64,000 nt of DNA from Nitrosococcus watsonii C-113 (GTDB taxonomy: Bacteria; Pseudomonadota; Gammaproteobacteria; Nitrosococcales; Nitrosococcaceae), in the NCBI RefSeq assembly GCF_000143085.1, contig NC_014315.1:2882001-2946000 (forward strand). The letters are read 5' to 3'. How positions within the stretch are numbered: the first letter of the stretch is position 1; each line of letters begins with the position of its first letter. Under the pieces are notes generated by a model. That model did no database searches and had not been told where the DNA came from. It was given only the letters and a program-made list of their open reading frames with translations. Position numbers and translations under genes: made by a program. Positions 47,904-53,138 of this stretch are shown in pieces.

Positions 47904-48528
47904 GCTTTCCCTTCATCAGGAGAGATAGCAAAGCACACCTACTGGCCCATGTAGGGGTTAGTGGGTTCACTTCTTCAGGCTACGGGGTATACATGCCCCT
48001 CAGCGGCCTATTATACCGGGCACCCGATATCCCACCCTAGCGGCCTCGATACCTAAAAGCCTCATTTCTCAGCCCCATAGCGCTGGCCAAGCGGGACGAC
48101 AGTCCCCCTTTGGGCTATGGCTCCTTCCCTGAGGGTCTTATTCAACACACCCCTTAGTCCGCCTTCTGTACAGAGAAGTTGACAAGGGGGAGGGGAGAGG
48201 TAAGGGATTGAATTGAGGTCGATTGTTAGTGTTTTTAGGGGGTGGGGGGTAGAAGTGTTACATAGCTGAAACAAGGAGCGAGGGGGAGCGGGGGGAGGAG
48301 AGGGTCTTTCCGGGGTGCGGGGGATAGGAATGGTGTGTAGTAACAAGGGCTTAGAAGGTTTGGCATGGACTTAGCAATGTCTAGGGGCAGACAAGGGATG
48401 TCAAGGACAGAGCTTCCCACAGAAAAAGGGGATACCTGATGAGTAAACACGCTTGAGAAGGGCGTAGCAGGGCCAACACGGCGCAGGGACAGGCGCACCC
48501 AGACAACCAATGCTAAGGAGCACATTTG
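47904..48528. other. 625-base non-coding region with a G-rich tract before the first tandem paralogue
   Basis: No gene that I can support. From about 48180 to 48330 the plus strand is strongly purine- and G-rich, unlike its surroundings. A TTGACA at 48179 has no matching -10. Open frames on the minus strand here are Pro/Leu-rich readings of the G-rich tract and not convincing. The right end carries the ribosome site AAGGAG (48515-48520) of the paralogue at 48529. Confidence 0.4.
48282..48323 (+). promoter_or_regulatory. G-quadruplex motif upstream of paralogue 1
   Basis: Five G-runs (5, 6, 3, 4 and 5 G) are separated by loops of 3, 6, 7 and 3 bases, satisfying the usual G3+N1-7 rule. It lies on the coding strand about 205-245 bases before the ATG of paralogue 1. 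Whether it is transcribed is unknown. Confidence 0.45.
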
Positions 48529-49680
48529 ATGAAACACACTACCCTTATGATGAGCGCGGTTGTAGCCGCCTCCATGCTAAGCACCTCCGCCCTGGCGCTA
48601 GACCGGGCCAATACCTCCGAGAAAGGCAGCCTCTTGGTGTTCCCGAAAATCGATGTGAGTGGAGAGCGCAATACGATTATTCGTCTCCAAAATGATTACT
48701 CCGATTCGGTGAGTTTGAAGTGCTACTGGAAAAACGGCACCAAGCACTTTGCTGATTTTCAAATCAAGCTGACCAAGTTTCAACCCATCTGGCTCAGCGC
48801 CCGGGATGGCAACGGGACCTACCAAGTGCCGCCCTTTCCCACCGCCACCAACCAGCGCTACCTGGATAAAATAGGTCTCAGTGGTGGTGAACATGCCACC
48901 CCCAGCAAGGTCTCCTTGCCCGAGAACGCCACCCATACCGGCGAGCTGCAATGCTGGGCGGTGGATAGCGCCGGGGCCAGTGAAATTCGCTGGAACCATC
49001 TGGTTGGCACCGCCACCGTGGTCGATGCCTCCCAGGGAACCGCCTATGAGTACAACGCCTGGGGCTTCCGCTGCCTGGTGGGCGACAATGGGGAGGCATG
49101 CGTGGTCGCCGATGCGGGTCAACTGGACCTCAATGGCAGCGAATACGAAGCCTGCCCCAAAAAGCTCATTAGTCAATTTACCCCAGCGGGCAGAGAGATG
49201 GGTGGGTTTGATGTCCAGCGCAATGAGCTGACCCTGGCCTCCTGCAATCAGGACCTGACCGAAGAGCAGCAATACCACTTCAGCTTTTTGAAGTTTAACG
49301 TCTGGAACGAGCAGGAAGTTAAATACACCGGCGCCTACCAGTGCATAGACAGCTGGCATCAGGGGCTGCTCGATGAGATGCAGAACAATGGGCGTAACTT
49401 CTCCGCCGCCAGCCTCAAAAGCGATGTGGCCCGCTTCAAGGTCAAGGCGATGAAGGGCAGCGTCTGTGAGCGTGCCGATAACCGCAAGACCTTCAACATT
49501 GACGAGAGCATTGTCACCGAAGAGGCCGGGCTGCTCGGGGTCATGGCCACCACCTACGGCATCGGGGAAGAGGTGGGCATCGCCCAAACAGGCACCACAC
49601 TGCACATGCTCGGTCAGATGGAGGGCTTTATCCTCTACGATCCCGCCGATGGGGAGATTGAGGAGCGTCCCGCTCGCTAA
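48529..49680 (+). CDS. Exported eight-cysteine protein, tandem paralogue 1
   Basis: 383 aa, no family that I recognise. A signal peptide ends in ALA at residue 23, so the mature protein begins LDRANTSEKGSLLVFPKID. Eight cysteines occur in LKCYWKN, LQCWAV, FRCLVG, EACVVAD, EACPKK, ASCNQD, YQCIDSW and SVCERA, all shared with paralogues 2 and 3. Many Trp/Tyr residues are also kept (IRWNHL, NVWNEQE, KYTGA). An export to periplasm or outside with four possible disulfides is inferred. The C-terminus is EIEERPAR. AAGGAG lies 8 bases before the ATG; a TTG just before it is not needed. Its upstream region differs from that of the other two copies. Confidence 0.85.
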   Translation: MKHTTLMMSAVVAASMLSTSALALDRANTSEKGSLLVFPKIDVSGERNTIIRLQNDYSDSVSLKCYWKNGTKHFADFQIKLTKFQPIWLSARDGNGTYQVPPFPTATNQRYLDKIGLSGGEHATPSKVSLPENATHTGELQCWAVDSAGASEIRWNHLVGTATVVDASQGTAYEYNAWGFRCLVGDNGEACVVADAGQLDLNGSEYEACPKKLISQFTPAGREMGGFDVQRNELTLASCNQDLTEEQQYHFSFLKFNVWNEQEVKYTGAYQCIDSWHQGLLDEMQNNGRNFSAASLKSDVARFKVKAMKGSVCERADNRKTFNIDESIVTEEAGLLGVMATTYGIGEEVGIAQTGTTLHMLGQMEGFILYDPADGEIEERPAR

Positions 49681-49731
49681 GGCCAGCGCTCAACTAGAAC
49701 TAGAATCCATCTAGCATACATCTTTTATCCA

Positions 49732-49767
49732 GGGGTCCGCCATACCAGGCAGACCCCTTCTTTTATA
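49732..49767 (+). terminator. Intrinsic terminator after paralogue 1
   Basis: GGGGTC-C-GCC loop GGC-A-GACCCC forms an imperfect GC-rich stem (49732-49757), followed by TTCTTTTAT. It lies 52 bases after the stop codon. Confidence 0.75.
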
Positions 49768-49861
49768 GGGGCCGTTAACACCGCTAGGCTCCCTCCGATA
49801 CAGCGCCTTGGGCTGCCCGGCGATAGAACAGGCTTGTCCCTGTACCCCCCCCTTAACGCCC

Positions 49862-50124
49862 ACGAGCTTTCATCAAAACGCTACTCAGCAGCCCTCCTCC
49901 CTCTCACCCCCCTTAGCATCCTCAAGTTTTCCCGCTATTGGCAGATAACCCTCTTACGGGATGAGGGTGTTGACCGCCCAGGACCCACGGCACGGAAAGG
50001 GGAAACAATTATTTTCCCCAACGCCTCAAGTCCCTCATCCCCAGTCCGATATAAATAGGGAAAGGATAGCGCCCGAAGGCGCCAATCAAGACACAACCAT
50101 GCTAAATGCTAAGGAGCACGATTG
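49862..50124 (+). repeat. Leader repeat, copy 1 (upstream of paralogue 2)
   Basis: These 263 bases match 51646-51908 with a constant offset of 1784, no gaps and two substitutions (near 49912 and at 49968). Weaker similarity extends left to about 49780. Inside are: CCCTC (49949-49953); GGGATGAGGG (49958-49967) and its perfect complement CCCTCATCCC (50032-50041); GGGGAAA/TTTCCCC (49999-50019); a TATAAAT at 50050-50056; GCGCC-CGAA-GGCGC (50069-50082); and AAGGAG before the ATG. GAGGG at 49963-49967 can pair with either CCCTC or the distal arm. If TATAAAT is the -10, the GCGCC hairpin would lie near the mRNA 5' end. Confidence 0.85.
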
Positions 50125-51417
50125 ATGAAACGTTATACGCTAATACTCGGCACCGCAGTGGCCGCCTCTTTGTTAAGCACCCCCCTCCTGGCCCTGGACC
50201 GGGCCAATACCTCCCAAAAAGGCAGTTTGCTGGTGTTCCCGAAAGTGGATGTGAGCGGGAATCACAACACCCTTATTCGTATCCAGAATGACTATTCCGA
50301 CTCCGTGAGCCTGAAATGCTACTGGAAAAATGGCACCAAGTTCTTGAGAGATTTTCAACTTGAACTGACCAAGTTTCAGCCCATCTGGATCAGCGCCAAG
50401 GACGGGGGTGGCACCTACGCTGTACCGCCGTTTCCTGTGTACCAGCCCGCAGTTGAGGGCCAGGACGCGGTTCCATACCAGCCTGAGGAGACAGACCCCG
50501 ATACTGGTGCGGTTATCACGCCTTCCCAACCGGCCCAGCCCGCGATTCCAGCCCAGCCCGCACAGAATATCAATCAAGACTATCTGGATAAAATAGGTTA
50601 TACCATAGACGAGAATGGCGACATCTCCCCTTCCGGTTCCAGCGAAGTCGGGCTGCCAGCCAATGCCACAACGGCAGGCGAGCTGCAATGCTGGGCGGTA
50701 GGCGCCGGGGGCGAAATTCGCTGGAACCATCTGGCTGGCTCGGCCACCGTGGTGGACGCCACCAAGGGAACGGCCTACGACTACAACGCCTGGGGTTTCC
50801 GCTGCCTGGTGGGGGGCAATGGCGAGGAATGCGTGGTAGCCGATGCGGGTCGACTAGACCTGGATGGCGCCGAATACGAAGCCTGCCCGAAAAAACTCAT
50901 GGGCCATTTTAGCCCGGCGGACGAGGAGATAGTGGATGGCGTTTTTGTGACCCAAAATGAACTGACCATTGCCTCCTGTAATCAGGATCTGGATGTGGCG
51001 AACCAGCAGTTTCATTTCACCATGCTAAGTTTTAACGTCTGGAACGAGCAGGAAGTTAAATACACCGGCGCCTCTCAGTGCATGGACAGCTGGCATTCTG
51101 GACTGCTTGGTGAGATGCAGAACAATGGCGAGCACTTCACCGCCGAGAGCCTTATGAGCAAGGTAGCCCGCTTCAAGGTCAAGGGGTTCAAGAGCACGAC
51201 CTGCGAGCAGGCGGATGACGAAGACACCTATGAGGTTGACGAGAGTATCGTCACCGAAGACGCGGGGCTGCTCGGGGTCATGGCCACCACCTACGAGTTT
51301 GGAACAGGGACTGGCTTTTACGACGAGACAGGCACCTCCCTGCGCGGGGTAGGCAACATGAACGGCTTTATCGCCTACGATTCAGATGGGGAAATTGAGG
51401 AGCGTTCCGCCCGCTAA
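50125..51417 (+). CDS. Exported eight-cysteine protein, tandem paralogue 2
   Basis: 430 aa, the longest of the three. The signal peptide (TAVAASLLSTPLLA) is cleaved after residue 23, giving LDRANTSQKGSLLVFPKVD. All eight cysteines of paralogue 1 are kept in the same contexts. The extra length is one insertion between PPFP and GELQCWAV, about residues 108-190, rich in Pro, Gln and Ala (for example PAQPAIPAQPAQ). It ends EIEERSAR. The first ~90 bases are nearly identical to paralogue 3, after which the two diverge. It has its own leader and a strong terminator, so it is a separate transcription unit. Function unknown. Confidence 0.85.
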   Translation: MKRYTLILGTAVAASLLSTPLLALDRANTSQKGSLLVFPKVDVSGNHNTLIRIQNDYSDSVSLKCYWKNGTKFLRDFQLELTKFQPIWISAKDGGGTYAVPPFPVYQPAVEGQDAVPYQPEETDPDTGAVITPSQPAQPAIPAQPAQNINQDYLDKIGYTIDENGDISPSGSSEVGLPANATTAGELQCWAVGAGGEIRWNHLAGSATVVDATKGTAYDYNAWGFRCLVGGNGEECVVADAGRLDLDGAEYEACPKKLMGHFSPADEEIVDGVFVTQNELTIASCNQDLDVANQQFHFTMLSFNVWNEQEVKYTGASQCMDSWHSGLLGEMQNNGEHFTAESLMSKVARFKVKGFKSTTCEQADDEDTYEVDESIVTEDAGLLGVMATTYEFGTGTGFYDETGTSLRGVGNMNGFIAYDSDGEIEERSAR

Positions 51418-51480
51418 GCTACCCCTCAGCTCTCAAGCAGCGCTGGCGGTCAAGAACAACGCTGATATTCAACCAACCAC

Positions 51481-51510
51481 GGGCCCGCCTCAAAGGCGGG
51501 CCTTTTCTTG
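51481..51510 (+). terminator. Strong intrinsic terminator after paralogue 2
   Basis: A perfect 9-bp stem GGCCCGCCT / AGGCGGGCC with a CAA triloop (51482-51502) is followed by TTTTCTTG. It lies 64 bases after the stop codon. Confidence 0.9.
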
Positions 51511-51645
51511 TGTGTAGCTCCTTCACCGGTCACTGCGAATGCCTGCGAAAAGCGTCAACCGCTAAGTTGGCCTCCCTGCTACCGCACGCCTTTTGGGCTT
51601 TCCCGGCGCCAGCCTGGCCGACCTCCTGCCCCCCCCGTAACGCCT

Positions 51646-51908
51646 ACGAGCTTTCATCAAAACGCTACTCAGCAGCCCTCCTCCCTCTCACCCCCGTTAG
51701 CATCCTCAAGTTTTCCCGCTATTGGCAGATAACCCTCTTACGGGATGAGGGCGTTGACCGCCCAGGACCCACGGCACGGAAAGGGGAAACAATTATTTTC
51801 CCCAACGCCTCAAGTCCCTCATCCCCAGTCCGATATAAATAGGGAAAGGATAGCGCCCGAAGGCGCCAATCAAGACACAACCATGCTAAATGCTAAGGAG
51901 CACGATTG
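51646..51908 (+). repeat. Leader repeat, copy 2 (upstream of paralogue 3)
   Basis: Near-identical to 49862-50124 (261 of 263 bases by eye). All pairing elements are kept: GGGATGAGGG at 51742-51751, CCCTCATCCC at 51816-51825, GGGGAAA/TTTCCCC at 51783-51803, TATAAAT at 51834-51840 and GCGCC-CGAA-GGCGC at 51853-51866. The sequence to the left, back to terminator 2, is related to the copy-1 flank but has several differences. Confidence 0.85.
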
Positions 51909-53138
51909 ATGAAACGTTATACGCTAATACTCGGCACAGCAGTGGCCGCCTCTTTGTTAAGCACCCCCCTCCTGGCCCTGGACCGGGCCAATACCTCCGA
52001 GAGAGGCAGCTTGCTGGTGTTCCCGAAAGTGGATGTGAGCGAGAATCACAATACCCTTATTCGTCTCGAGAACGATTATTTCGAACCCGTGAACCTGAAA
52101 TGCTACTGGAAAAATGGCACCAAGTTCTTAACCGACTTTCAGCTGGAGCTGAAAGAAAACCAGCCCATCTGGATCAGCGCCAAGGACGGAAAAGGCACCT
52201 ACGCTGTACCGCCGTTTCCCCAATCCAGCAATTGGGACTATGTATCTACGGTAGATGACGATGAGGATCATGGCGAGTCTTATTTCTCCAGCCCAGTTCA
52301 GTTACCAGACGATGCCGCGCAGAAGGGCGAGCTGCAATGCTGGGCGGTGAACGGGGCCGGGGACAGCGAAATCCGCTGGAACCATCTGGCCGGCTCAGCC
52401 ACCGTGATGGACACTGCCGATAACACCGCCTTTGAGTACAACGCCTGGAATTTCCGCTGCCTGGTCGGTAACACAGGGGACGAATGCGTGATAGCCGATA
52501 TCGGCAAGCTGGACCTGGATGGCGCCGAATACGAAGCCTGCCCGAAGAAACTCGTCGGTCATTTTAGCCCGAAAGAGACCGATCTTGTTAAGAGCGAATT
52601 GGGGGCTGATACTCTTGGGGACCTTCAGGTAACCCAAAATGAGCTGACCATTGCCTCCTGCAATCAGGATCTGACCCAGGACCAGCAGTTCCACTTCACC
52701 AAGCTGAAATTTAATGTCTGGAACGAGCAGGAAACCAAATACACCGGCGCCTATCAGTGTATGGATAGCTGGCACTCAGTATTGCTCGATGGTGGCATTC
52801 AGAACAATGGTGACCACTTCACCGCCAATAGCCTCCGGACCGATGTGGCCCGCTTTAAGGTCAAGGGGATGAAAAGCAGCGTCTGCGAACGCCCGAGTAT
52901 CCAACCGTCTGGCTACTTCCCCTTCTCTGCTGAGGCCATTGTGACCGAAGAGACCGGGCTGCTAGGGGTTCTGGCCACCAACTACGATATTGTGGCTGTG
53001 GATGACGCCGAAGCAGAACCACCAACCACAAAAACAGCAAAAGGCGCGACAGGCTCCCCACTGCACATGTTGGGTAAAATGAGCGGCTTTATCACCTACG
53101 ACCCAGCAGAACCGATTGAGGAGCGTCCTGCCCGCTAA
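51909..53138 (+). CDS. Exported eight-cysteine protein, tandem paralogue 3
   Basis: 409 aa. The signal peptide is nearly the same as in paralogue 2; the mature start is LDRANTSERGSLLVFPKVD. All eight cysteines are in register with the other copies. The variable segment between PPFP and GELQCW is short and acidic (VDDDEDHGE). A second variable segment lies before the C-terminus (DDAEAEPPTTKTAKG). It ends PIEERPAR. Its RNA-level signals match paralogue 2: same leader, same AAGGAG ribosome site, own terminator. Expression control is therefore probably shared, while the protein surfaces differ. Confidence 0.85.
   Translation: MKRYTLILGTAVAASLLSTPLLALDRANTSERGSLLVFPKVDVSENHNTLIRLENDYFEPVNLKCYWKNGTKFLTDFQLELKENQPIWISAKDGKGTYAVPPFPQSSNWDYVSTVDDDEDHGESYFSSPVQLPDDAAQKGELQCWAVNGAGDSEIRWNHLAGSATVMDTADNTAFEYNAWNFRCLVGNTGDECVIADIGKLDLDGAEYEACPKKLVGHFSPKETDLVKSELGADTLGDLQVTQNELTIASCNQDLTQDQQFHFTKLKFNVWNEQETKYTGAYQCMDSWHSVLLDGGIQNNGDHFTANSLRTDVARFKVKGMKSSVCERPSIQPSGYFPFSAEAIVTEETGLLGVLATNYDIVAVDDAEAEPPTTKTAKGATGSPLHMLGKMSGFITYDPAEPIEERPAR

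Follow-up and report, generated by a model that had tools for sequence, protein, structure and literature searches.

A probable recent gene-conversion tract covers the leaders and signal-peptide codons of two diverged tandem paralogues

Results

Two tandem genes, p2 and p3, carry almost the same leader and signal-peptide codons ahead of mature coding regions that differ strongly. In our judgement the shared block is, with good probability, a partial and recent gene-conversion tract that is ordinary in kind, and it fits the process that homogenises a second group of genes in the same family. The preliminary description of this DNA had left two explanations side by side, gene conversion of the 5' region or strong selection on a regulatory leader. 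The first is supported by concerted evolution elsewhere in the family, by a block edge that lies past the start codon, by synonymous sites that are nearly unchanged and by sharp breakpoints.

Family members and loci

The window (the whole 64,000-nucleotide stretch analysed) holds three of the six family genes of a 3.37 Mb host genome. One locus, in the window, carries p1-p2-p3, a second q1-q2 and a third r1; in the sister genome G002 the corresponding loci carry four genes (s1, t1-t2 and u1). We take the genome of the window to be Nitrosococcus watsonii and G002 to be N. oceani. These species are closest relatives with an ANI of 89.3% (PMC7285500). All family comparisons are based on one genome per species. 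Family genes were not found in two further genomes of the genus, and no relatives were found in 369 genomes of the class, in wider scans of genome contigs, in viral contigs or in plasmids. Among the genomes searched, the family was seen only in the two species, both probably Nitrosococcus.

The family proteins start with an apparent signal peptide, and many of their cysteines are invariant. No known domain scored above the Pfam or NCBIfam cut-offs, no PDB entry was matched by sequence, and a structure prediction with a mean pLDDT of 35 was set aside. As read from the sequence, p1, p2 and p3 are each complete, with a leader, an ATG, a stop codon and then a terminator-like hairpin. Antigenic or phase variation from silent cassettes thus found no support, as all three are complete genes and partial copies were not found.

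At the locus equivalent to p1-p2-p3, G002 has a single gene; on the left its flanking DNA corresponds to that of p1, on the right to that of p3. Together with the tree described below, these flanks suggest that p2 and p3 were lost from G002; a later gain in the window genome followed by fast divergence is a possible alternative.

Extent and edges of the block shared by p2 and p3

The features of the region are as follows.

49766 to 49846, plus strand: spacer from the p1 terminator to the block, diverged and with indels, with weak but detectable homology to 51506-51630
49847 to 50124, plus strand: p2 leader, the upstream part of the block, 4 differences in 278 positions from 51631-51908
50125 to 51417, plus strand: paralogue 2 (p2), 430 amino acids
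50125 to 50214, plus strand: 5' coding part of p2 within the block (codons 1-30, signal peptide), one synonymous difference from 51909-51998
50215 to 50345, plus strand: intermediate zone (about codons 31-74), dS about 0.25, compared with 0.04 before it and 0.6-0.9 after it, breakpoint 5/2000
51631 to 51908, plus strand: p3 leader, the block partner, aligned to the p2 leader
51909 to 53138, plus strand: paralogue 3 (p3), 409 amino acids
51909 to 51998, plus strand: 5' coding part of p3 within the block, aligned to p2 codons 1-30

The preliminary description had reported leaders identical at all but two positions, identity continuing through the signal-peptide codons and mature regions that differ much more, and all of this was reproduced. 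The leaders at 49862-50124 (p2) and 51646-51908 (p3) align without gaps and differ at two of 263 positions, 49912 (C/G) and 49968 (T/C); from the ATG to 50214 the only mismatch is at 50154. The proteins are 67% identical overall, and the mature regions differ by several indels. The block is longer than first stated: it runs from about 49847 to 50214 and from 51631 to 51998, with five differences in 368 bases. Its left edge (about 49847/51631) falls at a run of eight C residues, and similarity drops immediately upstream. Its 3' edge is at codon 30, so that the block ignores the start codon and ends about 30 codons inside the coding sequence. Past this edge identity declines stepwise over 60-base intervals (56/60, 55/60, 52/60, 45/60), reaching about 75% before the indels begin.

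The breaks in similarity are abrupt and lie off functional boundaries, at coding nucleotides 90 and 221 and upstream at about 49847. The main breakpoint by a maximum-chi-square-type test was at coding nucleotide 221 (breakpoint 125, 0 of 2000 permutations) with a second at nucleotide 90 (5 of 2000), and a GENECONV-like test placed 18 polymorphic columns in one run (7 of 5000). Both tests were home-made scripts written after max-chi-square and GENECONV, not those programs, and because they were read once the block was known, the permutation counts measure how sharp the block is and are not an independent test of a prediction. Chance and smooth drift are excluded as the source of the block.

The spacers that flank the block upstream, 49766-49846 and 51506-51630, retain weak homology (one of 500 shuffles reached the local alignment score), which makes the block appear as a young island within an old duplication. 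This bears on promoter capture, in which the leader of p2 or p3 was replaced by a copy of the other through illegitimate or one-sided recombination instead of conversion between homologous leaders. Outside p2 and p3 the leader has no relative in the sister genome or the other genomes searched, where p2 and p3 themselves also lack an orthologue, and similarity stops at once upstream of 49847; the isolated leader and this sharp edge are both as capture would have it. The spacer homology, on the other hand, fits homologous leaders that already existed, and the stepwise loss of identity on the 3' side points to more than a single event; we consider capture unlikely.

Strict G-quadruplex motifs number six in the 64 kb window, and two of them are in this gene cluster, at 49838-49861 (minus strand) and 48282-48315 (plus strand). 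The first lies at the left boundary of the block in p2, and the second, in the leader of p1, has not been conserved in the sister species.

Age of the leader and of the gene bodies

The bodies of p2 and p3 are at least as diverged as orthologues of the two species. Beyond codon 75 the dS between p2 and p3 reaches the 0.6-0.9 listed above and dN in the mature coding regions is about 0.24, while whole-gene dS between orthologues is 0.50 for p1-s1 and 0.74 for q2-t2. In the body tree the p2-p3 distance is about 0.52 compared to about 0.25 between species (group 1, q2/t2). The block itself gave the opposite picture. It contains 1 synonymous change in 27, compared to 7 in 26 and 8 in 24 in the orthologue pairs (15 in 50; Fisher p = 0.007), and the leaders differ at 2 of 263 positions compared to at least 30% between orthologous leaders of the family. 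It follows that the genes are much older than the leader they share. In the intermediate zone the count was 6 in 28 (Fisher p = 0.025 against the downstream part and 0.10 against the upstream part, on few sites).

Identical leaders before different bodies are also predicted by a very recent duplication of the whole unit after which p2 or p3 took in a foreign gene body, the case that the preliminary description had named as its refutation. The p2 and p3 bodies are, however, each other's closest relatives and cluster with support of 88/91. No donor was found in the host genome, the sister genome, the 369 class genomes, the genome-contig scans, viral contigs or plasmids, and the GC contents of the bodies (57.8% and 54.9%) lie within the 54-61% spanned by the family. 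We regard such an import as extremely improbable.

Concerted evolution of the group-1 genes

The remaining family gene of the window, p1, belongs to a set, group 1 (p1, q1, r1 and s1, t1, u1), in which the case for concerted evolution is stronger than at the p2/p3 block.

47988 to 49764, plus strand: homogenised unit with p1, 1777 bases, 100% identical to the L031 copy
48529 to 49680, plus strand: paralogue 1 (p1), 383 amino acids, signal peptide and mature secreted Cys-containing protein

The p1 group occupies three dispersed loci, with proteins identical to p1 at G000:C1:2599224-2600372 and 2254135-2255283. Over the 1777 bases p1 and r1 are 100% identical; against the L030 copy, identity is 98% from 48160 on, with the leader at 99.7% and one change in the coding sequence. 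Within a genome the proteins are 100% (p1, q1, r1) or 98-99.5% (s1, t1, u1) identical, compared to about 82% for syntenic copies of the two species, and the DNA of the two sets is 98-100% identical within a genome and about 79% between genomes.

The comparison that the preliminary description had proposed, whether copies within a genome are more alike than orthologues, came out clearly for the leaders of this group: 98.9-100% within genomes as against 68-69% across the two species (28 gap positions). Since the original observation did not mention group 1, this is independent evidence. Judged from these alignments, concerted evolution is the reading of the group-1 leaders. The loci are syntenic, with flanks that are 85-91% identical between species, and the edges of the homogenised unit fall at matching positions in both. 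Because of this synteny and these matching edges, the copies are most likely older than the species split, with homogenisation having occurred separately in each lineage. A mobile element was considered and rejected for the group-1 copies, as they occupy syntenic positions with matching edges in the two genomes and plasmid or viral relatives were not found.

A further observation concerns p3, s1 and t2, which share an unusually long stretch of cross-species DNA identity in the FHFTKLKFNVWNEQ region (alignment columns about 306-326; 0 of 5000 permutations). It suggests another exchange or a local constraint on the DNA.

Leader motifs and candidate regulators

Selection on a regulatory leader fared less well than conversion and is unsupported as the main cause. 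Purifying selection would have to keep the p2 and p3 leaders identical with no recombination. The block does cover the promoter and ribosome-binding-site region, and some motifs in the group-1 leaders are fixed between species. The tract crosses the ATG, however, and its synonymous sites are nearly unchanged where orthologues have changed at 15 of 50, while the group-1 and q2/t2 leaders are only 66-69% identical between species, drifting except in short motifs. The p2/p3 leader showed no excess of RNA structure (z = -1.43; 9 of 100 shuffles fold as well) and no Rfam match, the sole match up to E = 1 being below threshold and located elsewhere (51438-51509), and a consensus scan found no sigma-70 promoter in the block. 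A riboswitch or attenuator-type structured leader was rejected on the same fold and Rfam results. We consider leader constraint, as a cause of the identity, very unlikely.

Two motifs in the group-1 leader persist between the species despite its 68-69% identity. The 18-base palindrome TGTTACATAGCTGAAACA (48256-48273) has six exact occurrences across the two genomes, always before a group-1 gene, and was found nowhere else in either genome with up to two mismatches. A sigma-54-like box, TGGCATGGACTTAGCA (48361-48376), differs by one base in the sister species. Neither motif is present at p2 or p3. Where group-1 leaders do show constraint, it lies in these short motifs, which suggest that a dedicated sigma-54 activator controls p1-type genes. 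Candidate regulators of the group-1 genes are encoded directly upstream of the q1/t1 copy: a sensor kinase and a response regulator of the sigma-54 type (L033:3019-6017 and L030:8979-11909), which we take to resemble a PilS/PilR-type pair. Both regulator ORFs seem shorter or split in L030 relative to L033.

Discussion

The history that we favor for p2 and p3, gene conversion, would run as follows. The two are probably old tandem paralogues whose bodies parted around or before the split of the sister species. Homologous recombination between the tandem copies would then have recently copied about 370 bases of one onto the other, starting where leader homology begins and stopping near codon 30. 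An earlier conversion event probably reached about codon 75, the intermediate zone being what is left of this older and longer tract. Beyond that point the copies, with about 25% mismatch and indels, may be too diverged for conversion to extend or persist. As an outcome, p2 and p3 would have a promoter region, a ribosome-binding site and a signal peptide in common and mature proteins that differ. We infer the conversion mechanism and its direction, as well as shared expression and export as a consequence.

A more elaborate version, in which recurring conversion anchored at the start keeps promoter and signal peptide common to tandem genes with rapidly diversifying mature proteins, and in which the G-rich, quadruplex-capable sequence at 49838-49861 (minus strand) may be the trigger, seems to us unlikely. 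A quadruplex trigger is speculative, given that the sister species has not retained the group-1 motif.

Concerted evolution of duplicated genes by gene conversion in prokaryotes has been described for amo and hao of ammonia oxidisers (Wang and Chen 2018, PMC6053082). As in those genes, paralogues within a genome are closer than syntenic orthologues, and the organisms are again ammonia oxidisers; unlike them, p2 and p3 are homogenised in their 5' part only. In contrast to amo and hao, core pathway genes over long times, the present family is uncharacterised and comes from two species. Segmental gene conversion reportedly also acts on outer-membrane protein paralogues of Helicobacter pylori (babA/babB, hom). 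These H. pylori paralogues have conserved ends and variable middle parts. As with babA/babB and hom, segments here appear to be exchanged between paralogues of exported proteins. Unlike in H. pylori, evidence for population-level switching or antigenic selection is absent from this set of one genome per species.

With conversion, conservation that is higher in non-coding than in coding DNA at p2 and p3 would be explained with no need for a new regulatory element. The bacterial cases of concerted evolution would gain an uncharacterised secreted family that is restricted to a species group. Within that family the full unit appears homogenised in one subgroup and the 5' part alone in another, and the two outcomes can be compared directly in two genomes.
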